This document shows, piece by piece, positions 2,779 through 47,731 of a DNA stretch of 47,731 bases (the stretch's first letter is position 1; every line of letters starts with the position of its first letter). A model generated the notes under the pieces. The model ran no database searches and was not told the origin of the DNA. It saw only the letters and a program-made list of their open reading frames with translations. Origin of the DNA: an uncultured Actinomycetes bacterium (GTDB lineage Bacteria > Actinomycetota > Acidimicrobiia > Acidimicrobiales > RAAP-2); assembly GCA_903874965.1 (NCBI GenBank), contig CAIQUD010000132.1:1-47731 (forward strand), given 5' to 3'. A program made the translations under genes and the position numbers.

Positions 2779-2779
2779 G

Positions 2780-3217
2780 ATGGCCATGACTTCTTCGACG
2801 CTTGAGGTCGGACTCGAATTGCCGGAGCTTTCCATTCCGATCACAAGAACGTTGATTGTCTCGACCGCGATCGCGAGCAGGGATTATCAAGATGTTCATC
2901 ATGATCATGTGCTCGCCCAAGAGCGAGGAAGCAAGGACATCTTCATGAATATCTTGACGACCAATGGGCTGGTCGGCCGGTACGTCACCGATTGGTCCGG
3001 TCCGACTGGCCACCTTCAAGAGGTCAATATTCGTCTCGGAGCCCCGAATTACCCAGGCGACACCATGGTGCTGACCGGGCAAGTCGCTTCAGTGGAAGAA
3101 GGCGATGGAACCTCAGGACGTGCAACGGTGACCGTGGCAATTCGGGGTGCGAATGGTCTTGGTGACCATGTGACGGGAACAGTGCGCCTCACGGTGCCAA
3201 TGGGAGCCAATTCATGA
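2780..3217 (+). CDS. MaoC-like dehydratase, ChsH1-like
   Basis: ATG at 2780 inside the longer listed ORF; SRDYQDVHHDH catalytic Asp/His hotdog motif; ~145 aa. Confidence 0.85.
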   Translation: MAMTSSTLEVGLELPELSIPITRTLIVSTAIASRDYQDVHHDHVLAQERGSKDIFMNILTTNGLVGRYVTDWSGPTGHLQEVNIRLGAPNYPGDTMVLTGQVASVEEGDGTSGRATVTVAIRGANGLGDHVTGTVRLTVPMGANS

Positions 3218-5336: not shown

Positions 5337-7001
5337 TTAAAGGCGTTCTCCAACAACTCGATTGAGTTCGTCCTGGTCGCTGGTCCCGAAGGAGACGTAT
5401 TCGTCAGACCTCGACGGGGCGAAGAACACTGGATCACTCGTGTTCCATGCTTCAGCTCGAAGCGATTGCTTCAACACCTTGGTGGTTGCCGTGATGGGCA
5501 GGGCACTGCAGATTCGAATGTAGGTCGGCGACCACTTCGTTCCGAGGTCAGCTTGAGCATTGAGAAATGCTCGGAACTCTGCACCATCAAACACAGCACC
5601 AGGGCGGAGTTCAAGTGCAGCCATGACGGCGTCGCCGATCACTCGATCCGGAACGGCAAAGACGGCACCAACGACGACGTCTGGATGACGAGTGAGAATT
5701 GCCTCGACCGGGGCTGAGGCAAAGTTCTCGCCATCGACTCGAAGCCAGTCAAAGTCTCGACCAGCGAAGTAGAAGAAGCCCGCCTCATCTCGGTAGGCGA
5801 GGTCACCCGTGTGGAACCGACCATCCCTCATTCGTGCAGCGTCGGCCTCTGGATTCTTGTAATAACCCTCAAACGAAGAATTCGGAGGAGAGACGAGTGC
5901 GCCAGTGGCTTCCTCTCCGTTGAGGAGTTTGCCGTCGGCATCAAAAATTGCCCTCGGGCACTCATTGCCGTTCTCATCAATGACCGAGGTTCCCTCCGGT
6001 GCAACGCCCAAGGCTCCGGCAGGTGTGTCCGGCGTACGTGTTACCGAAAGTCCACCTTCAGTTGAGCCGTAGCCATCAACAATTGGGCACCCAAATCGCT
6101 CAACGAAGCGAAGTCGATCGTCGGCACTTGCTTCATTGCCGAAGCCAAGCTTGAGGCGGTGTTGCTTGTCGAGCTCACTCGGCGGTGACGCAAGGATGAA
6201 CGCCAAGGGCTTGCCGACGTAGTTAAAGAACGTGGCGCCACTTGCAATGACATCTGGAAGGAAGTTCGAGGCCGAGAAGCGACCTTGGGATGGCAGCGCA
6301 AGTGCACCTTTTACTCCTCGACAAGGCGAGTAACAGGCCATCAGCGCATTGGAGTGGAAGAGCGGCATCGAGCAGTAAAAGACGTCGTCTTGCCCGAGAC
6401 CAAACATTTGCCCCATGATGCCGCCGATCATCGCGAGCCGCCCTTGGCTGCACTTGACGGCCTTTGGTGCTCCTGAGGTGCCGGAAGTGAAAATGAGTCC
6501 CGCAAGCGTCGAAGGACTCACTGAAGGATCCGCGGTGTCGAGCGCGGAGGTTCCGATGAAGGTTGCGAACGTCGCTTGACCCTCGGCACTATCGACGATG
6601 ACGATGCGAGGATTCGTTTTTGAAGCTCGACCAATGGCTGGGCCGAGATCGAGACCATCAATCAGTGGGTAGAGCGCTTCATTCGTGAGGAGGAGCTGGC
6701 AATCGGTGTGGGAGAGGTCTCGAGCGAGATCTGCGCCGCGGTGGGTCGAATTTCCTCCCACAATTGCGGCGCCAACCAAAGCGGCAGCGTCGAGTGCGTA
6801 GACATACTCCTCACTGACATCGAGCAAGGTCGCAATATGAAAGGGGCCATCGATTCGATTCGCAACCATCCACGCCGCGCGCTGCGCCGCACGAGCAACG
6901 ACTTCCCTGTGGGTCGCCACGCCACTTGGACCAATCAGGCCGACGCGATTGTCCTCCGCAAGGCTCAGTACTCGCTCTTGCATGGTCGGGAATTCCGACA
7001 T
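5337..7001 (-). CDS. AMP-dependent acyl-CoA synthetase (FadD family)
   Basis: ANL-family P-loop LAGLIFTSGTSGAPKAVK, YGSTEGG, FHTGDLAYRDEAGFFYFAGRDFDWLRVDGENFA; ATG at 7001. Confidence 0.88.
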   Translation of the reverse strand: MSEFPTMQERVLSLAEDNRVGLIGPSGVATHREVVARAAQRAAWMVANRIDGPFHIATLLDVSEEYVYALDAAALVGAAIVGGNSTHRGADLARDLSHTDCQLLLTNEALYPLIDGLDLGPAIGRASKTNPRIVIVDSAEGQATFATFIGTSALDTADPSVSPSTLAGLIFTSGTSGAPKAVKCSQGRLAMIGGIMGQMFGLGQDDVFYCSMPLFHSNALMACYSPCRGVKGALALPSQGRFSASNFLPDVIASGATFFNYVGKPLAFILASPPSELDKQHRLKLGFGNEASADDRLRFVERFGCPIVDGYGSTEGGLSVTRTPDTPAGALGVAPEGTSVIDENGNECPRAIFDADGKLLNGEEATGALVSPPNSSFEGYYKNPEADAARMRDGRFHTGDLAYRDEAGFFYFAGRDFDWLRVDGENFASAPVEAILTRHPDVVVGAVFAVPDRVIGDAVMAALELRPGAVFDGAEFRAFLNAQADLGTKWSPTYIRICSALPITATTKVLKQSLRAEAWNTSDPVFFAPSRSDEYVSFGTSDQDELNRVVGERL

Positions 7002-7067
7002 ACCCACCCCCTCGGTGTTCGGTCGAATCTACTCCGAAGGGCAACCGGGCAACCTCCCCAAGGTTGT

Positions 7068-10680: not shown

Positions 10681-12300
10681 TTACGGAGTTGGCGTAGCCG
10701 TCGTGACGATGTTTGCTGCCCAGCGGTAGTCAGGCTTGCCAGCAGGTGAACGCTCGAGACCCTCAACGGTGAAGAGCAATCTCGGAACCTTGTAGCCAGC
10801 AACGTGCTTGCGGCAGTGCTCCTGAATCGATGCGAGATCAATTGGTTCGCCATCGGGCCTTGGGGCGATGATGGCCGCAACCGTTTGGCCCCAGCGCTCG
10901 TCTGGAGCCCCGACCACAATGGCGTCTGCAACGCCTGGGTGCGACCGAACGACCGCCTCGACCTCTTCGGGGAAGATCTTCTCGCCACCAGAGTTGATGA
11001 CGACGGAACCGCGACCAAGAAGGGTCACGCTGCCATCGGCCTCAACCGTGGCGAAGTCGCCAGGCATGACGTAGCGAACGCCGTCAACTTCAAAGAATGT
11101 CTCACGAGTCTTCTCTTCGGCCTTGTAGTAGCGCAAAGGAATATCCCCACTTCGTGCGATTTTGCCAATCACACCGGAACCTGGCTCAACAGGCTTCATG
11201 TCTTCGTCGAACACCACGGTGTCGCCGAGGCGGGTGACGGTGGGACCGGACTTCATTGCGGTATTGCCCTTCGTCATCATGGTGAGCCCGTTGTTGCCAC
11301 TCTCCGAAGATCCAATCGCGTCAGAGATCATGATGTTGGGGAGAACATCAAAGAAGTGGTCCTTGACCGGAGCTGAGAACAATGCAGCCGAGGACACGAC
11401 GGCAAAGAGGCTCGAGGTGTCATAGGCAGATGGATCCTCGGCCAAGTGTTCAATCAGTGGCTTGCCCATGGCATCACCGGTGATCATGACCGAGGTGACC
11501 TTCTCGTCTTCAACCAGTCGCCAAACTTCTGCCGGATCAAACTTCGGCATCAGTACGATTTTGGAGCCGACAAAACTTTGACCCATGACGCACCACTGTG
11601 TGGCTCCATGCATCAGCGGAGCCACTGGAAGATGGGTCAAGACAAAGCCGCTGTTGCCCTTTTCAATGAGCTCATCGGGAGACTCCATCCTTGTCTTCGT
11701 GACCGAATCCCAGCCTCCACCGAGCGCGTAGAAAACGTCCTTGTGCTGCCAAACAACGCCTTTTGGCATCCCGGTCGTGCCGCCGGTGTAGAGCATGTAG
11801 ATGTCGTCGCCTGAGCGAGGCGCAAAGTCCCGCACCGGGGCTCCGGTCGCGAGGAAGTCATCGTAATGAAGCGTGTCCGGTGTTGGGTCCGCGGTCGTTG
11901 AGTCGTCTTCAATCACGACGACACGCTCAAGCGTTGGGAGTTCTGGAGCAAGTGCCGCAACTCGGTCGGCAAAGGTGCGCTCGACGAAGAGGACTTTTAG
12001 ATCCGAGTTGGTGAAGAGATAGCGAAGTTCATCTTCGACGTAGCGGTAGTTGATATTGATCCAGATTGCTCGAATCTTGAAGGTCGCCCAAAGGATCTCA
12101 ATCCATTCGACCGAGTTGTAACTGTAAATACCGACGTGGTCGCCAGGCCCGACGCCAATTGATTGGAGCGCATGAGCCAACGAGTTCGCCCGAGCCTCCA
12201 TTTCTGCGTAGGTTCGACGCTTTCCACCTGCCACCAAGTACTCCCGGTCGGGAAAGTGATCGACGGCATTCTCGAAGAGGGTCGCGAGGTTGAAGTCCAT
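10681..12300 (-). CDS. acyl-CoA synthetase, FadD19-like (steroid side-chain CoA ligase type)
   Basis: NYRYVEDELRYLFTNSDLKVL, DIYMLYTGGTTGMPKGVVWQHKDVF, LMHGATQW, SDAIGSSESGNNG, AGYKVPRLLFTVEGLERSPAGKPDYRWA; close to the mycobacterial FadD19 sequence as I recall it. Confidence 0.88.
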   Translation of the reverse strand: MDFNLATLFENAVDHFPDREYLVAGGKRRTYAEMEARANSLAHALQSIGVGPGDHVGIYSYNSVEWIEILWATFKIRAIWININYRYVEDELRYLFTNSDLKVLFVERTFADRVAALAPELPTLERVVVIEDDSTTADPTPDTLHYDDFLATGAPVRDFAPRSGDDIYMLYTGGTTGMPKGVVWQHKDVFYALGGGWDSVTKTRMESPDELIEKGNSGFVLTHLPVAPLMHGATQWCVMGQSFVGSKIVLMPKFDPAEVWRLVEDEKVTSVMITGDAMGKPLIEHLAEDPSAYDTSSLFAVVSSAALFSAPVKDHFFDVLPNIMISDAIGSSESGNNGLTMMTKGNTAMKSGPTVTRLGDTVVFDEDMKPVEPGSGVIGKIARSGDIPLRYYKAEEKTRETFFEVDGVRYVMPGDFATVEADGSVTLLGRGSVVINSGGEKIFPEEVEAVVRSHPGVADAIVVGAPDERWGQTVAAIIAPRPDGEPIDLASIQEHCRKHVAGYKVPRLLFTVEGLERSPAGKPDYRWAANIVTTATPTP

Positions 12301-15785: not shown

Positions 15786-17396
15786 CTACTTGTTGAAGAT
15801 CTCCGCCGCTTCTCGCTTGTGACGTCCGTAGTCCATCTTTCCGGAGGGGCTTCGGCCAATGGTGTCGACAAGGCGAAGTTGCCGAGGTGCCTTGTAGTGA
15901 GCCAATTTCGTCTTCACAAACGAGATCAATTCTGGTTCTGAGCAGGTGCCGCTCTCATGGAGCTCAACTGATGCGACGACCCGTTCGCCATACTGCTCGT
16001 CAGGGATGCCAACAACGCAAGCGTCAGCGACCAATGGATGGGTCTTGAGGGCTTCTTCGACTTCTTCAGGAAAGACCTTCTCGCCAGCAGTGTTGATGCA
16101 CTGTGAGCCGCGACCAAGAAGTTGGATTGAGCCGTCCTCGCGAACTTTTGCGAAGTCACCGGGGATGGAATACCGCACGCCATCGATCGTCTTGAAGGTC
16201 GCGGCTGATTTCGCCTCGTCTTTGTAATACCCGAGTGGGTTGCGACCACCAACGCCAATCACTCCGATTTCGTCACTACCAGGCTCAACTCTCCTACCGT
16301 CTTCGGTGAGCACGATGACTGTTGGTCCGAGCGAAAACGCTGCCGTTGCCTTCGTGTCCTTCGCCGTTGAGACCGAACTCCCCATGCCAAGGGCCTCAGA
16401 CGAGCTGAAGGCATCGATCAGCATCATGGTTGGGTGAAGTGTGAGGAGGCCTTGCTTAATTTCTTCAGACCACATCGCCCCGGACGACATCATGGCGAAC
16501 AGGCTTGAGAGGTCGTAGCGGCTTGGGTCTGACTCGAGGACTCGCAGCAATGGACGCGCAAATGGATCGCCGACAATGACAGCGACGTTCACGTTGTCGG
16601 CTTCAATCGTTGCAGCCAACTCGTCGGCCGAGAAGTGTCGTGAGGGAAGGAGCGAGACGGTTCCACCCTCGGACAAACACTCAAGAGCGGTGAAGAGTCC
16701 CGTGCCATGCATGAGCGGACAGGCTGGAAGAAGGGTGACCCCAGGACCATTGGCCTCAAGATCGGTCCGAATTCCGCCCAGTCCTGCTCCTTGGTCATAC
16801 TTCCGAAAGCCCGCAGGATTGAGTCGAGCAAACAGGTCGTCCTGGCGCCACATGACACCTTTTGGCATGCCAGTTGTTCCGCCGGTGTAGAGCATCAAGA
16901 GGTCATCGGGCGACCTGCCCCATGGGGCGACTCCAGAACCCTTCGTGAGCAGTGCCTCACTCAGTGGCGTTGCCCATGATGGGCAGGGACTTGTGTGGTC
17001 ATCAACAAAGAGAAACGAATGCACCTTTGGCGTTCGAGCGCGAACTGCTTCGACCTGGCTCGTGAAGGTTCCGTGAAAGACGACGACGGTTGCGTCAGCA
17101 TTTTCCCAGAGATAGGCGAGTTCGTCTTCGCCGTATCGATAGTTCGTATTGACCGGGACGCATCCGATTCGAAACGCCGCCGCCACGCTCATGAGGTACT
17201 CGGGGGAGTTGTAGAGGTAGATGGCCACTTTGTCTTGCTTCGCAATGCCAGCGTCAAGCATCCACGAACCGAGCGCACGCGTCGACGCGTCGAACTCCCT
17301 CCACGTGATTGATCGTTCCCCCTGGTTGACGGCGGCACGATCCGGCTGGTTCTCTGCCACGAGGTCAAATATGTCTGCGTAGTTCCAACTCGTCAC
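15786..17396 (-). CDS. acyl-CoA synthetase (FadD family; related to the 10681-12300 ligase)
   Basis: LLMLYTGGTTGMPKGVMWRQDDLF, NTNYRYGEDELAYLWENADATVV, HYKAPRQLRLVDTIGRSPSGKMDYGRHK. Confidence 0.9.
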   Translation of the reverse strand: MTSWNYADIFDLVAENQPDRAAVNQGERSITWREFDASTRALGSWMLDAGIAKQDKVAIYLYNSPEYLMSVAAAFRIGCVPVNTNYRYGEDELAYLWENADATVVVFHGTFTSQVEAVRARTPKVHSFLFVDDHTSPCPSWATPLSEALLTKGSGVAPWGRSPDDLLMLYTGGTTGMPKGVMWRQDDLFARLNPAGFRKYDQGAGLGGIRTDLEANGPGVTLLPACPLMHGTGLFTALECLSEGGTVSLLPSRHFSADELAATIEADNVNVAVIVGDPFARPLLRVLESDPSRYDLSSLFAMMSSGAMWSEEIKQGLLTLHPTMMLIDAFSSSEALGMGSSVSTAKDTKATAAFSLGPTVIVLTEDGRRVEPGSDEIGVIGVGGRNPLGYYKDEAKSAATFKTIDGVRYSIPGDFAKVREDGSIQLLGRGSQCINTAGEKVFPEEVEEALKTHPLVADACVVGIPDEQYGERVVASVELHESGTCSEPELISFVKTKLAHYKAPRQLRLVDTIGRSPSGKMDYGRHKREAAEIFNK

Positions 17397-22182: not shown

Positions 22183-22803
22183 GTGCGTCAAGAAGACTTC
22201 TTTGGTGAATCACAACAATCGAGGAACCTCGAAGGTCCCGACCTCGAGGTCCGGTACGTGCCTAGTTTTCTTGACCCATCTCGAGCTCAGTTGGTCATGG
22301 AGCGTCTGCTCAATGAGACCTCGTTTCACCAATACGAGCGGACGCTCTTTGGAGTGACGCGTCCAACACCTCGGGAAGAAGCTTGGATTGGCGATCCAAA
22401 CTGCAGCTACGGCTATTCGGGTGTTGTTCTTCAACCTTCGCCATGGACACCTCTGCTTCAAGAACTCCGAGACGAACTTTCACGTTTGGTCGATGCAACG
22501 TTCAATTCAGTGCTGATCAACCACTACCGAACTGGTTCGGACTCGATGGGGTGGCATGCGGACGACGAAGCATCGTTGGGAAGCAGTCCAGTGATTGCGT
22601 CACTCAGCCTTGGAGCAACCCGCACGTTTCAACTTCGCCATGTCACCCTTCGAGAATTCCGCCACACGATTGAACTCCATAGCGGCGATCTGCTGGTCAT
22701 GAGTGGACGAACACAGGCCCATTGGCAACATCAGATCCCAAAGACCTCACGCACCGTTGGTTCTCGGCTGAATCTGACCTTCAGGACAATCGAGGTCACC
22801 TAA
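22183..22803 (+). CDS. AlkB-like 2-oxoglutarate/Fe(II)-dependent dioxygenase
   Basis: SVLINHYRTGSDSMGWHADDEASLGSSPVIASLSLGATRTFQLRH...LHSGDLLVMSGRTQAHWQHQIPKT..GSRLNLTFR; GTG start at 22183 inferred within the longer ORF. Confidence 0.88.
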   Translation: MRQEDFFGESQQSRNLEGPDLEVRYVPSFLDPSRAQLVMERLLNETSFHQYERTLFGVTRPTPREEAWIGDPNCSYGYSGVVLQPSPWTPLLQELRDELSRLVDATFNSVLINHYRTGSDSMGWHADDEASLGSSPVIASLSLGATRTFQLRHVTLREFRHTIELHSGDLLVMSGRTQAHWQHQIPKTSRTVGSRLNLTFRTIEVT

Positions 22804-23987
22804 GCGTCGAGACGAAGCGTCGCATGACGAAGGCCAGCAATCACCGTGCTCGGGGAACGCTCAACTTCGCCAATTCGTTGAAGGGTTGATGCCCGCGACG
22901 CAAGTCCGCGTAAGAGAATGTCGGCTTCCATTCGTGCAAGTGCCGCACCCAGGCAGAAGTGGTTGCCAACGCCGAAACTCACCTGGGGATTTGGTGATCG
23001 AGTCACGTCAAGCTCGTTGACGGTCGGGCCAAAGGCTTCTTCATCGAAGTTGGCGGAACCATAGAGGAGCAAGATTGGGTCACCCTCCCCAATCTCAACG
23101 TCTCCAAGTGAGGTCTGTTTGGTGGCGGTCCGAAGAAACGACGTCACCGGCGTTGTCCACCGAAGCAATTCTTCAACCGCCGTTGGGAGCACGTCTTCGT
23201 TCTTGACGATTCGTTGCCACTGCTCGGGGCGATCTGCCAACGCGACGAGTCCACCAGAAATCAGATTTCTGGTGGTTTCGTTACCTGCGACGAGCAGTTG
23301 AATCAGAAACATTGCCAACTCGGCCTCAGAGAGGAGGTCGCCGTCGATGGTTGCCGTGGCAATGGCAGAAACGAGATCGTCTCGAGGTTCACGGCGACGT
23401 TGTTCTGCCAAGCCAATGAGGTAGTTCCACATTTCGAGCTGTGTTGCGGCTCGAGTCTCCGCATCGAGTTCTTGCGCACCAGGAATTGCGGCTTCAGACC
23501 ATCTGAAGAACGTTGGCCATTCGTCGATATCGGCGCCCAGAATTTCTGCAATGACTTGAAGGGGAAAGGGAATGGCGAGCGACGTCACGATGTCGAGGTC
23601 TTCGCCGATTGGCAAGGTGTTGAGCAAGCGTTCCGCCGTTGCAGCAACTTGATCCCGGAGTTGCCGGACAACGGTTGGTTTGAAGCCAGGTTGTGCAAGA
23701 CGCCGATACCGCGTGTGTTCGGGGGCGTCGGTGTGCATCATGGTTGGCGGACTTGCGTAGGTCGTCCCAATCTCCTCGACGAGAATTCCGCGACTTGAGC
23801 AAAAGTCTTCCGGGTGGAGCGAAGCTTTCGTCAGAAGTTGATGTGTTGAAACTGCCCAGAATCCGGGCTCTTCCACCCACGTAACCGGTGCCTCACGGCG
23901 AAGCGTCGCATAGAGGGGGCGAGGGTCTCCGAGATAGGTCGTTGGGTCGAGAAGTTCAGCTCCCCGCGGATGGCTCTGACGCATCAA
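22800..23987 (-). CDS. cytochrome P450
   Basis: I-helix LVAGNETTRNLISGG, EELLRWTTPV, heme loop VSFGVGNHFCLGAALARME. Confidence 0.95.
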   Translation of the reverse strand: MMRQSHPRGAELLDPTTYLGDPRPLYATLRREAPVTWVEEPGFWAVSTHQLLTKASLHPEDFCSSRGILVEEIGTTYASPPTMMHTDAPEHTRYRRLAQPGFKPTVVRQLRDQVAATAERLLNTLPIGEDLDIVTSLAIPFPLQVIAEILGADIDEWPTFFRWSEAAIPGAQELDAETRAATQLEMWNYLIGLAEQRRREPRDDLVSAIATATIDGDLLSEAELAMFLIQLLVAGNETTRNLISGGLVALADRPEQWQRIVKNEDVLPTAVEELLRWTTPVTSFLRTATKQTSLGDVEIGEGDPILLLYGSANFDEEAFGPTVNELDVTRSPNPQVSFGVGNHFCLGAALARMEADILLRGLASRASTLQRIGEVERSPSTVIAGLRHATLRLDA

Positions 23988-33671: not shown

Positions 33672-34760
33672 ATGACTCAGCAAGTGCTTGACGACGTTCC
33701 TGAGTCACGCGGTCCAGCAGCCGGATCACTGAAGCCGGTTATCGACATCATCCCGGAAGAAGCCTATGAACGCCCGACGTGGCGGGGTCTTTCGTATTTC
33801 GCCCGGGATTTGGTGTGCTACTTCGGACTGTTGGCACTGTTGTTCTTCGTCACCAATCCTCTGCTGGTCATCCCAATCGAAGCGGTCCTCGTCTTTGTGA
33901 CGACAGGGCTCTTTGTGATTGGCCATGATGCCGCCCACGGAGCCCTCTTCAACTCAAAGAAGATGAACTCGATTGTTGGGCACCTCGCCATGCTGCCGAG
34001 TTGGCACGTCTATGAGGGTTGGGTGCTTGGCCACAACCGCATCCACCACTCCTACACCGTTCGCCAGGGCTACGACTTTGTCTGGCACCCCTACACCGTT
34101 GAGCAGTTTCAAGAGATGTCGTGGATTGGCAAGCTCCGCCACCGTTTCGAGTGGTCGTGGATAGGTGCCGGTGCGTATTACCTCCGCGAAGTTTGGTGGC
34201 ACAAGATGGTGGTTGGTCAGCCACCTTCACGCTGGCGCAAGGCAGTTCGGCGCGACCGACTTGTCGTGCTTGGTTTCGCTGTTGGTTTTGCTTCGCTGCT
34301 TGGCTACCTCGGCTGGGTGGAAACGCATTCGGCCTTTGGCGTTGCGTGGATGATCCTTCGTATTGAAGTCATCCCATTTCTCCTCTTCTGTTCAATGATC
34401 GGATCCTTGGTACATGTGCATCATGTGCAGCCGACGATCAGGTGGTGGAAGCGAGGCGAGTGGACCAAGTTCCGTGGACAAATGGAAGGAACGACGGTCC
34501 TTCGAGTCCCGAAGGGCGTCAACTTCTTCTTCCACTGGATCATGGTGCACACGCCACATCATGTGGACATGCGAATCCCGATGTACCACTTGGAACTCGC
34601 TGCGTCAGCCATTGAAGAGCACTATCCAGACACGGTGCATGACGCGCCTCTGCGCTTTCGTGACTTCCGGAGCAATGCGAAGATTTGCAAGCTCTACAAC
34701 TTCGACACTGGAACCTGGATTCCGTATCGGGCAGCCAGGAAGGCAAGCGCAACTGCTTGA
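33672..34760 (+). CDS. membrane fatty acid desaturase family protein
   Basis: His boxes GHDAAHGALF, GHNRIHHSY, VHVHHVQ, HTPHHVD. Confidence 0.93.
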   Translation: MTQQVLDDVPESRGPAAGSLKPVIDIIPEEAYERPTWRGLSYFARDLVCYFGLLALLFFVTNPLLVIPIEAVLVFVTTGLFVIGHDAAHGALFNSKKMNSIVGHLAMLPSWHVYEGWVLGHNRIHHSYTVRQGYDFVWHPYTVEQFQEMSWIGKLRHRFEWSWIGAGAYYLREVWWHKMVVGQPPSRWRKAVRRDRLVVLGFAVGFASLLGYLGWVETHSAFGVAWMILRIEVIPFLLFCSMIGSLVHVHHVQPTIRWWKRGEWTKFRGQMEGTTVLRVPKGVNFFFHWIMVHTPHHVDMRIPMYHLELAASAIEEHYPDTVHDAPLRFRDFRSNAKICKLYNFDTGTWIPYRAARKASATA

Positions 34761-36073: not shown

Positions 36074-36206
36074 CGCTGCTCCAAGGGTCAGGTGCCGGCG
36101 ATGTCACCGGCCTGGTCGGACGCCTGATCGTAGCCTTCCTTCGTGAGCGCTAAGAGAATTGGGGCCATGCTCGTCAGTCGGTAGGGTCTCAGGCGGAGGT
36201 TTCACC

Positions 36207-37418
36207 ATGCCGACTGCTCTTCAAGACCTGGATCTGCCCTACCTCGATGTCCTTGGGATGCCTCGAGCCGAGGCGAATGCCGTTGCCGCAGAGATGGCAA
36301 AGACGTCCTGGTTGGCCCGGAGTGAACTCGGCTACACCGTGCTTCGCTATGACGAAGCCGTGTCACTCCTTCGAGAGCGGAAGTTCTTCAACGGCATTCG
36401 CCTGCTGCGTGAGATCAATGGTGTTGAAGCCGAGGAGGTTGGCCCGACCAAGCGAGAGTCAATTCTCGCCATGGAAGGCGAAGGGCACACTCGGCTCCGT
36501 CGGCTTGTCGCACCAGCATTCACTCCGGCCGCAACTGACGGTCACCGGGGAAAGATGCGTGAGGTCTTCACCGACCTCCTCAATCCTCACCTCACCGGCA
36601 CTCAAATCGAATTGGTGCAAGCGGTTTGTGAGCCCTACCCGATTCCGATTATTTGCGAAGTGCTCGGTGCGCCACCAGAAGACTGGGAGCAGTTCAGCGC
36701 CTGGGCGACGGACATCTTCAAGATTTTCAATCAAAACCTTCAAGAAGACCTTCCCGCAATTACTGCGGCTGGTGAAGCGCTAGCCGCATACATTGCCAAT
36801 CTTGTTGCCGTTCGACGACTCGAGCCGAAAGATGACCTGCTGTCTGCACTGATTGCAGCAGAAGAAGACGGTGACCGCCTTTCGACAGAAGAGCTCTGCA
36901 TGCTGGCTGAAGCAGTGCTCATGGCAGGGACGGACACCACCCGAAATCAGCTCGGGTGCACGATGGCGCTGTTCGCGGAGAATCCAGAGCAGTGGGCGAT
37001 CTTACGAGAACGACCTGAACTCATCGGACGAGCAGTCGAAGAGTCAATGCGGTACCTCGGAGCAGTTCGAGGCACCCTTCGCTATGCCAGCGAACCGGTG
37101 GTGTTTCGCGACATTTTGTTTCCCGAAGGCACGATTGTGTCCGTCAGCCTCGCCGGTGCGAATCGAGACCCCCATCTCTTCGAACATCCCGACGACTTTG
37201 ACCTGCTGGCGGAGCGGTCGACAAAGCACCTCACCTTCGGTTCGGGAATCCACCACTGTCTCGGAGCTGCATTGGCTCGGGCCGAGCTCCAAGAGGCCCT
37301 CTCGGTCTTGGCGAAGACGTTTGAAACGGTTGAACTCGCCGGACCGGTTGAGTGGAAGCCACCGACCTTCGGCATTTGGGGACCATCGGTCCTCCCACTT
37401 CGTTTCACCCTCGCGTAG
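36207..37418 (+). CDS. cytochrome P450
   Basis: VLMAGTDTTRNQLG, heme loop LTFGSGIHHCLGAALARAELQ; ATG at 36207. Confidence 0.95.
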   Translation: MPTALQDLDLPYLDVLGMPRAEANAVAAEMAKTSWLARSELGYTVLRYDEAVSLLRERKFFNGIRLLREINGVEAEEVGPTKRESILAMEGEGHTRLRRLVAPAFTPAATDGHRGKMREVFTDLLNPHLTGTQIELVQAVCEPYPIPIICEVLGAPPEDWEQFSAWATDIFKIFNQNLQEDLPAITAAGEALAAYIANLVAVRRLEPKDDLLSALIAAEEDGDRLSTEELCMLAEAVLMAGTDTTRNQLGCTMALFAENPEQWAILRERPELIGRAVEESMRYLGAVRGTLRYASEPVVFRDILFPEGTIVSVSLAGANRDPHLFEHPDDFDLLAERSTKHLTFGSGIHHCLGAALARAELQEALSVLAKTFETVELAGPVEWKPPTFGIWGPSVLPLRFTLA

Positions 37419-38616: not shown

Positions 38617-39879
38617 TCAGGCGTCAACCACTGCGATGCGAGCGATGCTTGTAAGCGAGCAGTAGTAGAGGTCTCGATGTTCGCCTGGTGTCGGGAACAG
38701 AACCGACTGGACCGGAGACTCGGTAGACACCCTTGAGAGTTCCTCGCCAGTTGAAATATCGAGAACGACGAGAGCGTCAGTTCCACCGGGCTCAAAATCG
38801 AACGTCACAAGTTGACCGGATTCTTGAAGCAAGACCAAGTGGCTTGCATGGTCTTGGAGACGACTCCATGCCAGGGACGTGACGCCGCTTCCATCAAGAT
38901 GAAATCCCGACAAGACGGCATTGGAGGAGTCGTAGCCAACCGCAATCATCCGGACCGGATCAACGATGGGTGGGTTGGCAATGAGCCCATTTGGGAGCCC
39001 TGCAACTTCAGTCAGCTGGACTTCTTGCGTCGAGAGATCGACACGAACGAGGTGGAGCGGAGCCTCAGAGATCCCCTTTCCTCGGAACGATCCATCAAAG
39101 GCCTCGCTCCCTTCACCGTTATCGAGAAACCATGCGCAACCTCCGACGAGAACCGGGTCCCATCCATAGGTCTGACCCTTGAGCGTGCGGTAGCGGATCC
39201 TCGAGATTTCCTCGATGATTTGGTCTTCGGGATGAAAAGCGAACGTGACGAGGTCATTTACGCCGATGAGGACAATCTCATCTCCGTTTGCAGAGAGACG
39301 GGCGATGGAACCCTGATCAATTTCGATTGAGGCGCAAACCGCCAAGGTCTCCGGATCGAGCACCAGCAACTCAGTCGAACCGGAGAAATCTCGGCCATCG
39401 GGGAGCCTCCCGCCGAAGTCCTTGGTGGCGAGAAATCCCGAGTCGAGAATCACGAAGCTGTTGTAAGGGGAATGCCGGGGGAGCGTCACAGTCGCTTTCA
39501 GCTCAAGCGAAGGACTCAAGCGATGTGCGTGGTTCCCAAAGACCACGTAGAGATCACCATTTGCGTGGACGGCGAGGCCACCGGGCCAAATCGGTCCACC
39601 TGGCAAATCGGCCGAACGTGCGAGCGTTTCGAGGGTGAGGGGGTCAATCTGTTCGACATGACACGGGGCGTCGCCACCCACGTCGTGACTCAAGAGAAAG
39701 AGTTCACCGGGATTCCTCCGGACCACCATGGTCGTGGCGATATTCAGGCGGTGGACCACCTCGTAGCGTTCATTTGGGCCGGGCACGAGCCCTCCGTGGC
39801 CTTCAATTCGTTGTTGACGTCTCGGACCACCATCTTCAGCGGGCCAAGGGCTGTTCCAGTAGCCAAGTGCACGAGTCAT
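38617..39879 (-). CDS. hypothetical beta-propeller-like protein
   Basis: ~420 aa with repeated strand patterns (GGLAVHANGDLYVVFGNHAHRLSP; LLVLDPETLAVCASIEIDQGSIARLSANGDEIVLIG); ATG at 39879. Confidence 0.6.
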   Translation of the reverse strand: MTRALGYWNSPWPAEDGGPRRQQRIEGHGGLVPGPNERYEVVHRLNIATTMVVRRNPGELFLLSHDVGGDAPCHVEQIDPLTLETLARSADLPGGPIWPGGLAVHANGDLYVVFGNHAHRLSPSLELKATVTLPRHSPYNSFVILDSGFLATKDFGGRLPDGRDFSGSTELLVLDPETLAVCASIEIDQGSIARLSANGDEIVLIGVNDLVTFAFHPEDQIIEEISRIRYRTLKGQTYGWDPVLVGGCAWFLDNGEGSEAFDGSFRGKGISEAPLHLVRVDLSTQEVQLTEVAGLPNGLIANPPIVDPVRMIAVGYDSSNAVLSGFHLDGSGVTSLAWSRLQDHASHLVLLQESGQLVTFDFEPGGTDALVVLDISTGEELSRVSTESPVQSVLFPTPGEHRDLYYCSLTSIARIAVVDA

Positions 39880-39936
39880 GAAGGTGAGAGTAGGCCATGA
39901 CGCAAAGAAGTTCGTTCTTGCCGCCAGACTGGAGGT

Positions 39937-40542
39937 ATGTCGATTCCCCAACTGAAACCCTGGAAAGCAATTGCGGTCTACTGCGGTTCAGCCAAAGGAG
40001 TGATTCCTGCCTACAGCGAAGCAGCAGCCACGCTCGGTCAAGTGCTCGTTCGTCGAGAACTTGACCTCGTCTATGGCGGAGGTTCAATTGGTCTTATGGG
40101 GGTCATTGCGGCATCGGTTATGGAACACGGCGGGCGTGTCCACGGGGTCATCACCGAAGCCCTCCACAAGAAAGAGGTTGGCAACGCGGCAATTTCTGAA
40201 CTCGAAGTGGTTGCGACCATGCACACCAGAAAGGCGAGAATGGCCGATCTCGCTGATGCCTCGATCATTCTTCCTGGCGGATTCGGAACGCTCGATGAGT
40301 TCATGGAGACTGTTACGTGGAATCAGTTGGGTGTCCACGCGAAACCGTGTGGAGTCCTCAATGTTGCTGGCTTCTTCGACCCGCTCCTCGAGTTCATTGA
40401 CCACGCCGTTGATCAGGGATTCATTGCTCCGCACTATGCCGACAGTTTGCTCGTAGCCGATGATCCTGACGACCTCCTTGATGCAATGCGTCGCATCGTG
40501 CTGCCTAAAGGAATCACGGTGATCCAGCCGGACGACCGTTGA
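39937..40542 (+). CDS. LOG family (lysine decarboxylase-like Rossmann fold) protein
   Basis: IAVYCGSAKG, LVYGGGSIGLMG, LPGGFGTLDEFMETVTWNQLGVH. Confidence 0.94.
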   Translation: MSIPQLKPWKAIAVYCGSAKGVIPAYSEAAATLGQVLVRRELDLVYGGGSIGLMGVIAASVMEHGGRVHGVITEALHKKEVGNAAISELEVVATMHTRKARMADLADASIILPGGFGTLDEFMETVTWNQLGVHAKPCGVLNVAGFFDPLLEFIDHAVDQGFIAPHYADSLLVADDPDDLLDAMRRIVLPKGITVIQPDDR

Positions 40543-40913: not shown

Positions 40914-41486
40914 ATGACCTTGCCTGTTCTACAAGTCATCATTGGCAGCACGCGTCCCGGCCGAATTGGAGACCGGGTTGCCGCATGGGCAGCGGCCCAA
41001 GCAGAAGCCCACGGCGGTTTCGAGGTTGAAATCATTGATCTTGCGGAGATCGGTCTTCCTCTCTACGACGAACCTAACCATCCAATGCTCGCCACCTACG
41101 TTCACGAGCACACGAAGCAGTGGAGCGCAACCATTGGTCGTGGTGATGCCTATGTGCTCGTGTGTCCTGAGTACAACCACGGCATCAATGCCGCCCTCAA
41201 GAACGCACTCGATTTCCTCTATCACGAGTGGCAGAGAAAGGCCGTTGCCTTCGTTTCGTATGGCGGCGTCTCGGCTGGAACTCGGGCCGTCCAGCAGTTG
41301 CGCCAAGTGACGGCGGCGCTTCGGATGGTGGCAATTGTTGAATCGATTCACTTGTCGTTTCCAATGGCGCATATGGCAGAAGACGGAACCTTTGCTCCAG
41401 GTGCGGCGTCCGATGCTGCGGCAAAGGCAATGTTTGATGAAGTGGAACGATGGACGACGGCAACGAACACGATGCGAAAGGGCTAG
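40914..41486 (+). CDS. NADPH-dependent FMN reductase family protein
   Basis: VIIGSTRPGRIGDRVAAW, VLVCPEYNHGINAALKNALDFLYHEW, VSYGGVSAGTRAVQQLR. Confidence 0.94.
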   Translation: MTLPVLQVIIGSTRPGRIGDRVAAWAAAQAEAHGGFEVEIIDLAEIGLPLYDEPNHPMLATYVHEHTKQWSATIGRGDAYVLVCPEYNHGINAALKNALDFLYHEWQRKAVAFVSYGGVSAGTRAVQQLRQVTAALRMVAIVESIHLSFPMAHMAEDGTFAPGAASDAAAKAMFDEVERWTTATNTMRKG

Positions 41487-41497
41487 AGCGTCGTTTC

Positions 41498-42457
41498 ATG
41501 GCGCGTCCACGTCGACAACGATTCCGATGGGTTGTCGTTGTTGGAAGCCTTGTTGGATTGTTCATCTCCATCACCGGAATTGCTCAGCTCTACGTTGCGA
41601 CGACCTCAAAGCCAATGTCGGTACCTCGAAATCTGCACTTCGTTGAAACCGGTTCCTATGCAACTCGGTACGAAGCATGGGGGAAGCCAACGAAGCATTC
41701 GATTGTGTTGCTCCATGGGGCGTTTGAATCCGTTGCCACGTGGGTTCCTCTTGCTCGGGTCCTTCAGAAGACCAACCACGTAGAGGCATATGACCTGAAG
41801 GGTTATGGCTACACCGATCACGTGGGGCCGTACACGGTCGACGCCTTGAGTCAGCAATTGGAGGCCTTCCTCCACGCACGCCACCTTGTGCACGCGGTCC
41901 TCGTTGGCCACTCACTTGGTGCGGGGGTTATTGCCGCCTTCGTGCTGAAACACCCAACCGAAGCGGCCGGAATGGTCTTCCTCGACGGTGATGGACTCTC
42001 GATGGATTATCCAGGTCGTGCCTTTCAGTCGCTCCTCATTGAGCCCTACCGGTCGGCACTCTTTCGTTCCGTTGTGAGAAGCAACTTCTTGCTGTCGACC
42101 ATCTTCTCAACGGCTTGCGGTCCGGAGTGTCGACCGCTCACCTCGTCAGAACTGCAAGACCTTCGATGGCCCCTGTTGGTCGCCGGAGCGGAGCAAGCGC
42201 TCCTTGGATACATGGAGCATCCGATTGTCGGCGTCTCTCGAGCGCAACGAGAGCAATTGGGGCGCCTTCGACTTCCAGCGCGCGTGATCGCCGGTCGTGA
42301 AGACTCGGTGCTTCCACCCATTGAGGCCCGAAGAACCGCAACCGTTCTCCATGCGCCGCCTCCAACCGAGATTGTCGGAGCTGGCCATCTCGCCTTGTGG
42401 TCAGACCCGGTTGCGGTGGCGAAGCCCATTCAAGAACTGTTGACCGAGCTCGGTTGA
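41498..42457 (+). CDS. membrane-anchored alpha/beta hydrolase
   Basis: N-terminal TM, VLLHGAFESVATWVPLARVL, VLVGHSLGAGVIAAF, IVGAGHLALWSDP; start 41450 or 41498. Confidence 0.9.
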   Translation: MARPRRQRFRWVVVVGSLVGLFISITGIAQLYVATTSKPMSVPRNLHFVETGSYATRYEAWGKPTKHSIVLLHGAFESVATWVPLARVLQKTNHVEAYDLKGYGYTDHVGPYTVDALSQQLEAFLHARHLVHAVLVGHSLGAGVIAAFVLKHPTEAAGMVFLDGDGLSMDYPGRAFQSLLIEPYRSALFRSVVRSNFLLSTIFSTACGPECRPLTSSELQDLRWPLLVAGAEQALLGYMEHPIVGVSRAQREQLGRLRLPARVIAGREDSVLPPIEARRTATVLHAPPPTEIVGAGHLALWSDPVAVAKPIQELLTELG

Positions 42458-43393
42458 CGCCCAAGCCGCCAACAATGAAAGCCCCTCGTCAACGCTGACT
42501 TGAGGCTGCCAGTTGAGTGCTGACTCCGTTGCTCGTTGGTCAAACCAGTGCGCCATGGACAACTGCTCAGCGGCAAAGGCGGTAAGTGGTGGCTCATCGC
42601 CGCGCCAAACCCGCTCGATCACGGAGCCAAGCAGTTTTGCAAGAGGAGCAGGAATCGACGCAATCTTTCGCTCCATGCCAAAGGCAGCCAGGATGCCGTG
42701 GACGAGTTCGCCGACGGGTCGAGGATCGCCACCAGTCACGAGAAACGCTTGGCCCGAGAGCTGTGGGCTATCTCCTGTTCGATCGAGTGCCGCCACGATG
42801 GCCGCTGCAGCGTCGTCGACATACATCGTCCCAATGAGCGCTCTTCCATGATCGGGAAGAGCGAGGCGGCCCTCTGCCGCACGCTCAAGGAGTCGACCCA
42901 CCAACTGCGTATCGCCTGGACCCCAAAGGAGATGTGGTCGAAGAATGATTGTCTGGGCGGTGCTCTCCTTGAGCACCAGTTGCTCGCCCAGTGCCTTTGA
43001 ACGCGCATAGCGATCTCGCCCTGCATAGGCCGGGGCTTCCGCGCCTCCGCCCATGCTCGGCTCGTGGGCGAAGCCAACTGAAGGCGTTGAGATGTGGACA
43101 AGTCGACCGAGCTCGTTTGCTGCATGCACGATGTTGCTCGTTCCGACCACGTTGACCGCGTAGGCATCGTTCCAAGAGGGCTTCGGGGCGACGAGTGCAG
43201 CGAGATGAATGATCGCGTCATTGCCCTCGGCCGCCTTCATCACTGCATCTCGATCACGAATATCCCCAGTGATCGAACGATGCGGAGAGGAGGCACTTCG
43301 TTGGAAACCACAGACGTCGTCACCTCGAGCTGAAAGCGCGGCGACGACCTCCTTGCCAAGGAGGCTGCTCGACCCTGTGACGAGCACCTTCAT
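42401..43393 (-). CDS. oleD: NAD(P)-dependent 2-alkyl-3-oxoalkanoate reductase, OleD-like SDR
   Basis: MKVLVTGSSSLLGKEVVAAL, YARSKALGEQLVL (YxxxK), WGPGDTQLV; immediately downstream of oleBC. Confidence 0.85.
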   Translation of the reverse strand: MKVLVTGSSSLLGKEVVAALSARGDDVCGFQRSASSPHRSITGDIRDRDAVMKAAEGNDAIIHLAALVAPKPSWNDAYAVNVVGTSNIVHAANELGRLVHISTPSVGFAHEPSMGGGAEAPAYAGRDRYARSKALGEQLVLKESTAQTIILRPHLLWGPGDTQLVGRLLERAAEGRLALPDHGRALIGTMYVDDAAAAIVAALDRTGDSPQLSGQAFLVTGGDPRPVGELVHGILAAFGMERKIASIPAPLAKLLGSVIERVWRGDEPPLTAFAAEQLSMAHWFDQRATESALNWQPQVSVDEGLSLLAAWASTELGQQFLNGLRHRNRV

Positions 43394-43395
43394 CC

Positions 43396-45825
43396 TTATC
43401 GACCTTCGAGGAAGGTCGCGACTAGGTCGCGAAGCACTGTTCGGTCGACCTTCGACTGATGTCGGTGATCGACGGGGAGTGTTCCTTCAAGGACCGCCGC
43501 GAGAGGAACGTTGCTGACACGCCGAGCCTCGAGTGCCAAGTTCGGCTCCGCGAGGCGAAGTTTGCCTTGCGTGTTGAGAACGACGGTGACGACCTGGAGC
43601 CCTTCTGGCCCGACGCCAACTGCGGCGACTTCGCACCCAAGGGCTGTGGCAATTGGTCCCTCGATTGCCACCGAAGCTCGGGGGCCATCTTTGGTCGACA
43701 GGACGTGGGCAAGTCTTCCGAGAATGTAGAGGCGTCCCTCGTTGAAGTAGCCAACATCGCCCGTTCGGTGAAAGGAGATGCCGTCGAGATCGAGCGTTGA
43801 TGCTTCGGACTTCGTCCAGGCGCCGTCATAGCCAGCAAACATCCACGGAGCGTTGACAAGGATTTCTCCCCACTGCCCATCGCCGAGAGCTTGGCGTGGA
43901 TCAGACAAGCTCACTACCTTGACCGTGCAGCCATCAACGGGGAAGCCAACCGAGGTCCCACCGCTTGGTCCAATGAGTTCAGGGTCTTCACCGCCGGTGA
44001 TCGGGAGGCACTCGGTCATCCCATACGGTGCGAGGACAAGACCGCCCGTGATCTCCTTCACCGAATGCGCAAGAGGTGCGGGAATTGGGGCTCCTGCCAA
44101 GAGCGTGCGCCCAATCGCGATCGACCTCCCCGCTGCGGTCTTCGTCAGCTGACGAGCAGAAGCAGGGGAGAGCCAAGCCGTTCCAATGGGGCCCCCGTCG
44201 CTAGCGGCGAAGAGTTCATCGAAGCCGAGCGCGCTCGGTTGGTCTATAGGGATGTCTGGTCGAACGCAAGACATTTCGAGAACTGGTGCGAGCAAGAGAA
44301 ATGCGGCAAATGAGGTGGTGAAGACTTGGTCAGGTTCCGGCTGCACCAAGGCTCGAAGTGCTTCTCGCTGGGACGTCAGCGCCCCATGTGTGTAGCGGAC
44401 TGCCTTTGCTGGCCCGGTTGCCCCAGAGGTGTGGACAATTGCGGCCAAATCCTCTCGATGGAGGCCCACCATTGGAAGTGCGGCATCAATGGAAGCGTCG
44501 AGGTCAAGGGCGACCCCTCGAACACCAAAGCCCGCAGCGATACTTCCCGGGGTGAAGCGAAAGAGGCGGTCACCGAGAAGTGTCCTTCTTGTTCCAATGA
44601 CCATTCGAGGCGCTTGGGCTCGAAGGAGGCGCCGAATCGACCAAAGTCCTCCTGAGGGGTCGACCACTGCAAGGACTCCACCACAGCGCCACACCGCAGC
44701 GGCTGCAACGAGGAGATCTGGCGAAGGAGGAACGAGGAGGGCAACTCGGTCACCTGGCCGGAGACCTCCCATAGCCAGCACCTTCGATGCCTTCTCGGCA
44801 CGTCGACCAAGGTCCTCCCACGTGAGCGAACCATCTGGACCTCGGTAGATCGTTGAAGTGTCGCTCGAATGACGTGTAAGCGAGGAAAAGACGGTCTCGT
44901 CGACCAACTGGTCATTGAGAGTGTCCGAAGCATCAGCGGGAAGTCCGCTCGCTTGTAGGTTCAGCCATTGTGCAATGACAGGCCCAACTGCACCATCGAG
45001 GAGGACCAGGTGACCCGAATTCGGGTGCCGTTCAATCGAGGCACTTGGTTGACGCCTTCGTAGATCACTGAGGAACCGGTCGTGAAAGACGGGATCCTTT
45101 CCGCCCCAGATGAGAAGGATTGGGCACGTGAGCTGGTCGAACGTCGTCCCGACCAACGCAAGTGCTTCGGCGGAGGGATCGTCAGGTCCGAGTGGAATGT
45201 CAGCGACAAAGTCTCGAACTGCCTCTCGACGATCTGCCGAGCGGTAGGGGGCGTTCAGGGCCTTTCGGTGTTCCTTGGTCGTCATTGCGGCGGTTCCGCG
45301 AACGAACATCGGTGTTCTCCTGCAGCTGAAATCAACAAGCGCTCGAGCGGCCTTGATCAGTGGAGGAACCTCCACGCCCTCGGGCTTCGCCACCGCAGTA
45401 TTCGCCAAGATCAGCGCCTGCACGTTGAGGTGGCCGGCTGCGCCAACGGCGACAGGGCCTCCCCAGTCATGGGCGACGAGCACGACTGGACCGCAAACTT
45501 CCTGCCGACAGAATTGGACGAGTTCGTCAATGCGTTCGCTCAATCGACGCGGATGGTTCCTCTCGGAGTACCCCATGCCCGATTGGTCAACGGCAATCAC
45601 TCTCCAGCCTGGAGCGAGTGTCGTGAGCACGTCTTTGAAGAGATACGACCAGGTTGGATTTCCGTGAACACAGACGAGCGTGCCAAGTGGACCAGCTCCC
45701 GTGTCAAGGACGTGCCAATCAACTGGTGTTCCAGCGGTGTTCAAGAACGTCACTCGACGTGACCAGGATGGATTGAGGCCAAACGAAAGGAGCTCTTCAG
45801 CGCTCGGGCTCTTTGGAGCTGACAC
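43396..45825 (-). CDS. oleBC: OleBC fusion: beta-lactone decarboxylase (alpha/beta hydrolase) + beta-lactone synthetase (ANL ligase fold)
   Basis: N-terminal haloalkane-dehalogenase-like VHGNPTWSYLFKDVL and VLVAHDWGGPVAV; C-terminal LAAIVHTSGATGPAKAVRYTHGAL, APYGMTECLPITGGE, FHRTGDVGYFNEGRLYILGR. Confidence 0.88.
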   Translation of the reverse strand: MSAPKSPSAEELLSFGLNPSWSRRVTFLNTAGTPVDWHVLDTGAGPLGTLVCVHGNPTWSYLFKDVLTTLAPGWRVIAVDQSGMGYSERNHPRRLSERIDELVQFCRQEVCGPVVLVAHDWGGPVAVGAAGHLNVQALILANTAVAKPEGVEVPPLIKAARALVDFSCRRTPMFVRGTAAMTTKEHRKALNAPYRSADRREAVRDFVADIPLGPDDPSAEALALVGTTFDQLTCPILLIWGGKDPVFHDRFLSDLRRRQPSASIERHPNSGHLVLLDGAVGPVIAQWLNLQASGLPADASDTLNDQLVDETVFSSLTRHSSDTSTIYRGPDGSLTWEDLGRRAEKASKVLAMGGLRPGDRVALLVPPSPDLLVAAAAVWRCGGVLAVVDPSGGLWSIRRLLRAQAPRMVIGTRRTLLGDRLFRFTPGSIAAGFGVRGVALDLDASIDAALPMVGLHREDLAAIVHTSGATGPAKAVRYTHGALTSQREALRALVQPEPDQVFTTSFAAFLLLAPVLEMSCVRPDIPIDQPSALGFDELFAASDGGPIGTAWLSPASARQLTKTAAGRSIAIGRTLLAGAPIPAPLAHSVKEITGGLVLAPYGMTECLPITGGEDPELIGPSGGTSVGFPVDGCTVKVVSLSDPRQALGDGQWGEILVNAPWMFAGYDGAWTKSEASTLDLDGISFHRTGDVGYFNEGRLYILGRLAHVLSTKDGPRASVAIEGPIATALGCEVAAVGVGPEGLQVVTVVLNTQGKLRLAEPNLALEARRVSNVPLAAVLEGTLPVDHRHQSKVDRTVLRDLVATFLEGR

Positions 45826-45836
45826 GCGAGGCTCGC

Positions 45837-46850
45837 CTACCAGCGAAGTTCTGCGGCGGCGCAGTTGAGTCCCGATCCAATTCCCATGAGGAGGACTCGC
45901 TCTCCAACTTCAATGGTGTCCGCAATTGTCGACAAGGTATACGGCACGGCTGCTGGACCCATGTTGCCGAACTTCGGGTAGGTAAGTGGAACTTTGGTCA
46001 TATCGACGTCGAGAAGTTCGCAGAGCTGCTCATTGTGAACCTTTGACACCTGGTGCATGACGTAGTGGTCACAATCGGACCAAGACCATCCTTCAGCAAT
46101 CGCATCATCAAGTGCCTCACGTGCGAGTTTCAATCCGCTCGTTAGGAGACCAGCCGTATCGGTGCGCATGCGGTCAAGGTCGCCAATACAAAGTTCATGG
46201 TGGACGGTTGCCGCACGAGTGATACCTCCGAGGTATCGGTGGGCGTCGGATCGAATACCCCCAAGCACCATGGCAGCTGCACCTGAGCCAATCGTGAGTG
46301 AGGCAAATTGTTCGAAAACATCTTCGAGGGTTGCCGTCTCTTGACGCAGTCGACTGATGGTCGCCTCTTGGGTTTGTCGACTTCCTTCACCATCGACGAT
46401 GAGCACGGTTCTCGCTTGACCCGATTCAATGGCCATTGCTGCAACGTGCATCGCATTCACAAATCCAAGACAGGCGTTGCCGAGGTCAAAGTTTCCGCAC
46501 GATGCCGAGAGGCCAAGTCGGAAATGAACCGCACAGGCAACGCTCGGCTCTAAGTGGTGCTTGCTCACCGACGTCGAGATCAACAGGTCAATGTCGCTTG
46601 GCTTCAGTCCTGCAGCGGTGATCGCCTTCGCACCAGCGAGTGCAGCTGCCTCGTCGAATGGCATGCCAGCGGGCCACCAGCGGCGTTCTTGAATGCCCGC
46701 AAGCGAACCAAGCAGGCCCGGACGAACGCCAACACGTTCGAAGGTTGTCGCTAACTGTTCGTCGATCCAAGCCGAAGTGATGACCTCTGGAGCCTCGGCA
46801 TGGGCAACGCTCCAGACGGAAGTAGTGGGGAACGTTGAAGGACTCGGCAC
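45837..46850 (-). CDS. oleA: OleA-like thiolase-superfamily fatty acyl-CoA condensing enzyme
   Basis: LISTSVSKHHLEPSVACAVHFRLGLSASCGNFDLGNACLGFVNAMHVA, YVMHQVSKVHNEQ, YPKFGNMGPAAVPYTL. Confidence 0.88.
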   Translation of the reverse strand: MPSPSTFPTTSVWSVAHAEAPEVITSAWIDEQLATTFERVGVRPGLLGSLAGIQERRWWPAGMPFDEAAALAGAKAITAAGLKPSDIDLLISTSVSKHHLEPSVACAVHFRLGLSASCGNFDLGNACLGFVNAMHVAAMAIESGQARTVLIVDGEGSRQTQEATISRLRQETATLEDVFEQFASLTIGSGAAAMVLGGIRSDAHRYLGGITRAATVHHELCIGDLDRMRTDTAGLLTSGLKLAREALDDAIAEGWSWSDCDHYVMHQVSKVHNEQLCELLDVDMTKVPLTYPKFGNMGPAAVPYTLSTIADTIEVGERVLLMGIGSGLNCAAAELRW

Positions 46851-46998: not shown

Positions 46999-47731
46999 TT
47001 ACGGGACCAAGTTGTCCGCATCGGTGCGGGCAATCGCAATCCAGTAGACCTGCGACGGTTGCGTGTCACACTTCGCCGTGAAGCCCGTGCTCGAGACCGC
47101 AGTCACTGCACAGTTTGCGGTCGGAACGTTGGACGTCAGGTTCACGATTGGAGCACCAGTACCGAAGGCAGCGGAGAATGTCCAACTCTGCGAGTAACCG
47201 CCGGTCGTTGGCGAGAGGTTCTGCAGGTTACCTGCGAGGTACGGAGCAGCTGGACCCTGGGGACCAGTGGTTCCCTGAGGACCTGCAGGTCCGCGGGCAC
47301 CTTGCGCGCCCTGCACGCCGTTTGCACCCTGAGGTCCCTGTGGGCCAGCTGCACCCTGCGGTCCAGCGGCACCCTGTGCGCCGGGAGCGCCGGGAGCGCC
47401 TTGTGCGCCAGGAGCGCCATCAGCACCCTGAGGTCCTTGAGGGCCAGCTGCGCCCTGAGGTCCATTTTCACCATTAGCGCCAGGAGCACCTTGTGCGCCA
47501 GGCGCACCGTTCTCACCTTGTGATCCAGGAGCGCCGGGAGCACCTTGTGCGCCAGGCGCACCGTTCTCACCATTGGAGCCTTGAAGTCCCTGCGGTCCAG
47601 CTGGGCCTTGGGCACCAGGAGCACCAGGAGCACCAGGAGCACCGTTCTCACCATTTGCGCCGTTGGCACCTTGTGCACCAGTTGCACCCTGTGCGCCAGC
47701 CATACCCTGAGGACCCTGAGCACCGGTCGCA
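46999..47731 (-). CDS. collagen-like Gly-X-Y repeat protein with C-terminal ~75-aa domain (partial; N-terminus beyond window)
   Basis: [31 protein letters not shown]... repeat open to the window edge; C-terminus [28 protein letters not shown]...[42 protein letters not shown]. Confidence 0.9.
47477..47571. repeat. 54-bp period tandem repeat inside the collagen-like gene
   Basis: gcgcc[a/g]ggagcaccttgtgcgccaggcgcaccgttctcacc at 47477-47517 and 47531-47571 (41 nt, one mismatch). Confidence 0.85.

Follow-up and report, generated by a model that had tools for sequence, protein, structure and literature searches.

The steps by which Ole enzymes make olefins are known from the characterised pathways of Xanthomonas and Micrococcus, and in Xanthomonas campestris oleB and oleC are separate genes. 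In Micrococcus luteus and its relatives the genes are ordered oleA-oleBC-oleD (PMC7158056), and the oleBC fusion is described as typical of Micrococcales plus Granulosicoccus (PMC7064751). OleA, OleC and OleD homologues also occur together without OleB, in the oleACD beta-lactone clusters of Streptomyces toxytricini and Nocardia. We analysed a 47,731-nucleotide stretch of DNA (hereafter the window) from an uncultured member of Acidimicrobiia, presumably of freshwater going by bin names alone, which is genome G000 of our set and one of five genomes of its genus (G000 to G004). The window carries the following ole genes and domains:

45837 to 46850, minus strand: oleA, 337 aa, a head-to-head acyl-CoA condensing thiolase with Cys127, Glu101, His266 and Asn296
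43396 to 45825, minus strand: oleBC, 809 aa, a fused beta-lactone decarboxylase (OleB) and beta-lactone synthetase (OleC)
44938 to 45825, minus strand: OleB domain, approximately aa 1 to 296, with N56, D120-W121, D244 and H272
43396 to 44889, minus strand: OleC domain, approximately aa 313 to 809, with TSGATGPAK at 466, YGMTE at 601, RTGDVG at 687 and K792
42401 to 43393, minus strand: oleD, 330 aa, an NAD(P)-dependent 2-alkyl-3-oxoalkanoate reductase with a YARSK motif at 129

All four Ole functions are clustered on one strand (42401 to 46850) with intergenic gaps of 11 and 2 bp, and these positions, gaps and protein lengths agree exactly with those given by a first-pass annotation made from the sequence by itself. 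The locus resembles that of Micrococcus luteus and relatives in the order of its genes, the fusion of B and C, the catalytic residues and the layout of the operon, but its host belongs to another class than the Micrococcales, its OleBC is about 31 to 39% identical to theirs (among loci that did not include M. luteus itself), and, unlike those bacteria, the host appears to be without the canonical condensing enzymes of fatty-acid synthase. With X. campestris oleABCD it would share the same four activities, although B and C are fused in the window and separate there. The Granulosicoccus locus has a fused oleBC in the same order but belongs to Pseudomonadota. The 3' end of oleD is overlapped over 57 bp by a convergent alpha/beta hydrolase gene (41450 to 42457, plus strand), and a gene for a collagen-like repeat protein (46999 to 47730), truncated at the contig end, lies immediately upstream of oleA.

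The product of oleA is clearly closer to OleA than to FabH. It is 42% identical to X. campestris OleA (PDB 3row and others) and matches twelve X. campestris OleA chain sequences with E values from 2e-79 to 7e-78, whereas the next-best KAS III (FabH-type) protein reaches only about 1e-20. The NCBIfam model NF006720 scores above its cut-off, and the FabH model scores 107 bits, under its cut-off of 292. When aligned to the PDB chain, all four catalytic residues of the X. campestris enzyme, Glu117, Cys143, His285 and Asn315, correspond one-to-one to E101, C127, H266 and N296 in the window, and these are invariant in 87 homologues. Glu117 is the general base specific to OleA (PMC7064751), and its position is occupied by the glutamate of the LEPS motif, from which, among other features, an OleA-type condensing enzyme had first been proposed.

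The 809 aa protein contains an alpha/beta hydrolase domain (Pfam Abhydrolase_1/6) followed by an AMP-binding domain in one ORF, as expected of the hydrolase-ligase fusion that had been called here, and was compared with its relatives in a 13-row alignment. In its AlphaFold model (mean pLDDT 83), residues 293 to 309 form a linker of low confidence between two domains that are predicted with fair confidence. The best curated matches of the OleB domain are haloalkane dehalogenases, and the domain has an Asp nucleophile followed by Trp, an Asn past the first HG motif, a catalytic His and an acid, for which D244 is the probable residue. The OleC domain takes the fold of ANL enzymes in the predicted structure, carries the adenylation motifs and is nearest to OleC among ligases, making it a predicted beta-lactone synthetase; its top NCBIfam models are NF006754 (217 bits) and olefin beta-lactone synthetase (144 bits), both under cut-off. 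The HDWGG Asp nucleophile and the OleC motifs, which the first-pass annotation had singled out for alignment, are invariant in 84 homologues, 1 or 2 alignment gaps aside, as are N56, W121, D244 and H272.

Similarly, the product of oleD is an SDR with a YxxxK motif that is nearest to 2-alkyl-3-oxoalkanoate reductase. Its best NCBIfam model is NF042422 (OleD, 2-alkyl-3-oxoalkanoate reductase) with 250 bits, under a cut-off of 580 bits, and Y129 and K133 are invariant in 81 homologues, bearing out the earlier call of an OleD-type SDR. We note, as a point against the pathway, that OleC and OleD both fall under NCBIfam equivalog cut-offs and that the names of these models suggest proteobacterial members.

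Since the tested catalytic residues are present and (almost) invariant in 81 to 87 homologues, the best reading of the locus is the known OleABCD olefin pathway, and the pathway assigned initially agrees with what each gene encodes, with the B-C fusion and with the catalytic residues. Exogenous fatty acids would be activated to acyl-CoAs by acyl-CoA ligases, and OleA would then condense two fatty acyl-CoAs head to head to a 2-alkyl-3-oxo acid, which OleD would reduce to a 3-hydroxy acid. The OleC domain would close this to a beta-lactone in an ATP-driven step, and the OleB domain would remove CO2 to leave a cis internal olefin located in the membrane. We put the probability that this is a working, fused-oleBC operon for long-chain olefins, with acyl-CoAs most likely derived from exogenous fatty acids, at roughly 0.85, where expression of the operon and its olefin product are inferred by analogy with the characterised pathways.

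The homologues of OleA, OleC and OleD that the window has in common with the beta-lactone clusters (PMC7064751) could also mean that the operon yields a beta-lactone of the lipstatin or nocardiolactone type as its final or exported natural product. Those clusters are without OleB, however, and in the window OleB is present and intact, so the locus is not an oleB-less one; OleB is moreover fused to OleC, and its active site is preserved throughout the 84 homologues, which disfavours a pathway that dispenses with it. In the part of the window that was annotated, the operon has no glycosyltransferase, NRPS or exporter next to it. We consider such a product highly improbable, and the suggestion made at the outset that a beta-lactone might accumulate if OleB were slow finds no support in the sequence.

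The product structure of such a pathway is set by OleA, and the enzymes might instead act on special acyl-CoAs, for example steroid-derived or branched-chain ones, to give something other than a C23 to C33 olefin. Genes resembling those of side-chain degradation and P450 genes are present in the window and would fit such substrates, but the operon and its residues are the same as in ordinary olefin producers, and we regard an unusual product as improbable. The genes concerned resemble those of steroid side-chain beta-oxidation (611 to 4395; a ChsH2-like hydratase, an acyl-CoA dehydrogenase and a thiolase), and the P450 genes lie at 22800 to 23987 and 36159 to 37418.

Beyond the window, OleBC is encoded by 13 of 60 relatives, not counting the host, and because the order oleA-oleBC-oleD is kept in all 13, the operon is not a chance arrangement. 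An OleA match, distant in a few cases, is present in 73 of the 395 Acidimicrobiia genomes that sample the class, and most of the 73 have OleBC either full-length or split across contigs; separate oleB and oleC genes occur in one genus of family f60. Among 80 named loci, nearly all of them actinobacterial, 78 have the fusion layout as far as their contigs permit, spanning Micrococcales, Geodermatophilaceae, Propionibacteriaceae, Acidimicrobiales, Nanopelagicales and Granulosicoccus, with B and C apart only in loci of Myxococcales and Deltaproteobacteria. The first-pass annotation was right that the fusion occurs in actinobacteria such as Micrococcus; it is, however, the usual form across Actinomycetota and not special to Micrococcus-like bacteria, and with a layout so widely shared we rejected the idea of the fusion as the mark of a special lineage. 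No mention of the breadth of the fusion in Acidimicrobiia was found in the literature examined, and our data extend the range of an already known fusion. Near ole in G001, G003, G004 and G022, as in the window (38617 to 39951), there is a gene for a conserved 444 aa protein that matches neither Pfam nor NCBIfam models, adjoining a TIGR00730 gene.

Between G000 and its congener G002 the ole proteins are 78 to 97% identical while fourfold sites are 38 to 50% identical, which places oleA, oleBC and oleD under purifying selection. A horizontal sweep of oleA between these two genomes, considered as OleA is 97% and OleBC 80% identical, was rejected in view of the third positions of oleA, which are nearly as diverged as those elsewhere. 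In the OleA tree, the window sits inside a supported Acidimicrobiia group, in a group of 17 rows (support 100/100) that belong to the host family or to named actinobacterial bins. The bin CANFJV01, labelled 'Acidimicrobiaceae', belongs to the host genus, since its locus L061 and G001:C39 are one and the same contig. OleA of G003 (L026), a member of the host genus, groups with that of G013 (L025) from another genus (support 99/98), and on this tree evidence some exchange of the operon within the host family is likely. The Granulosicoccus OleA (L086) is placed within an Acidimicrobiales group, which suggests that this oleBC operon was acquired by transfer from a donor of that group, though the contig may be mis-binned.

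A KAS III search of the host returned OleA as the sole match, which is why we made a wider check for fatty-acid synthase genes. Matches of FabH strength (E 1e-24 or better) occur throughout the rest of the family sample but in none of the five genomes of the genus, nor in G022 and G033. None of the five has a strong ketosynthase (FabF/FAS-I, PF00109), their matches reaching at most about 25 bits as against at least 127 bits in most relatives, and FabD is missing from all five and from G022. Those of the weak PF00109 matches that were read (G000 C17 and C67; G003 C23) were considered as divergent ketosynthases and rejected, being thiolase-like with the sequences judged by eye. A ketosynthase (E 1e-20 or better) is found in 257 of 267 good genomes of the class, and the ole-positive genomes of the class that are without one are G000, G003 and the poorer bins G386, G412 and G420 (60 to 82% complete). 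Apart from the host genus, and probably one neighbour, good-quality ole-positive genomes retain a ketosynthase.

All genomes of the genus are draft bins, 80 to 97% complete with G000 itself at 85%, and the missing genes might therefore be thought an artefact of assembly or binning. However, three gene families are missing in five genomes of five, the 97% complete one included, and the ancestral site can be read on one contig in three species with other genes in its place. In G013, G010, G032 and G047, fabD-fabG-acp-fabF lies between tRNA-Leu(CAA) and trpA. In G001, G002 and G003 both flanking genes are on a single contig with no fab genes between them, the interval being occupied by amidotransferase and acetyltransferase genes and, in G003, also by a carbon-nitrogen hydrolase gene; in the host and G004, these acetyltransferase and amidotransferase genes come after trpA, and the contig then ends. 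Loss in every genome together with intact flanking loci makes incomplete assembly a very unlikely cause. A 24-residue 'fabD' match in G002 was examined as a remnant and rejected, as it is the tRNA-Leu gene read through.

Each member of the genus has one acyl carrier protein, whose gene adjoins plsX and rnc in those that were read, and most of the FAS-positive relatives checked have at least two, one of them adjoining fabF. From these gene contents, fabH, fabD and fabF have apparently been lost in the host genus together with the carrier protein of the synthase, and all five genomes show the gene pattern of a fatty-acid auxotroph, with ketosynthase, malonyl transferase and FabH all missing. Despite this apparent loss, plsX and an acyl carrier protein of the second type are retained beside rnc in the genus (L199:756-2123, L202 and L204). 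OleA as a substitute for FabH was rejected, neither FabF nor FabD being left for elongation.

With these genes apparently gone, the acyl-CoAs used by OleA would most likely come from scavenged fatty acids from outside the cell. The window also carries acyl-CoA dehydrogenases and a hydratase, in addition to the following:

5337 to 7007, 10681 to 12300, 15786 to 17396 and 33672 to 34760: three AMP-binding ligases and a fatty-acid desaturase, candidate acyl-CoA suppliers for OleA

The host could alternatively run the olefin pathway on fatty acids that it makes itself without FabH, FabF or FabD, for example by thiolase-based chain growth (reverse beta-oxidation), with no need to scavenge. The gene content includes several thiolases and acyl-CoA dehydrogenases, and the retained plsX and single carrier protein fit this option and count against strict fatty-acid auxotrophy, in which the need for them is smaller. 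Against it, we know of no thiolase-type de novo route to fatty acids established in bacteria, and Corynebacterium offers a documented case in which the synthase was lost and outside fatty acids are used (PMC8733736). We therefore hold synthesis by the host itself to be doubtful, though clearly a stronger contender than either a special substrate or an artefact of the draft bins, the latter being about as improbable as the former.

Uptake of fatty acids from outside, the preferred source for the OleABCD pathway, has its nearest parallel in these corynebacteria: lipophilic Corynebacterium without fatty-acid synthase likely builds its mycolates, which are condensed lipids, from exogenous fatty acids (PMC8733736), similar to the host genus, which likewise appears to have no de novo synthase and likely makes a condensed lipid from outside fatty acids. 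The two differ in that FAS-I is what Corynebacterium lost, with Pks13 making its mycolates, whereas the host genus appears to have lost type II genes and kept Ole. In the open-licence PMC literature we found neither fatty-acid auxotrophy in Acidimicrobiia nor an ole pathway coupled to synthase loss, and Acidimicrobiia are absent from the main text of two aquatic surveys of olefin genes (PMC10176705 and PMC13170169).

By itself, the operon does no more than widen the known range of fused oleBC. The retention of ole in a lineage with no obvious fatty-acid synthesis, on the other hand, is a natural test of what head-to-head olefins do for bacteria, since retention of ole by a cell that has to import every acyl chain is to be expected only if the product matters. 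We consider the chances about even that the genus discarded its fatty-acid synthase, kept ole under strong purifying selection and makes olefins from scavenged lipids only. If so, the value of the hydrocarbon to the cell would have to exceed that of the two acyl chains spent on each molecule, and uncultured Acidimicrobiia would be possible converters of the lipids of other organisms into hydrocarbons. Elsewhere in the same order, four genomes of family f20 (G055, G334, G383 and G423; 92 to 96% complete) have neither a strong ketosynthase match nor an ole operon, and may represent a second loss of the synthase.
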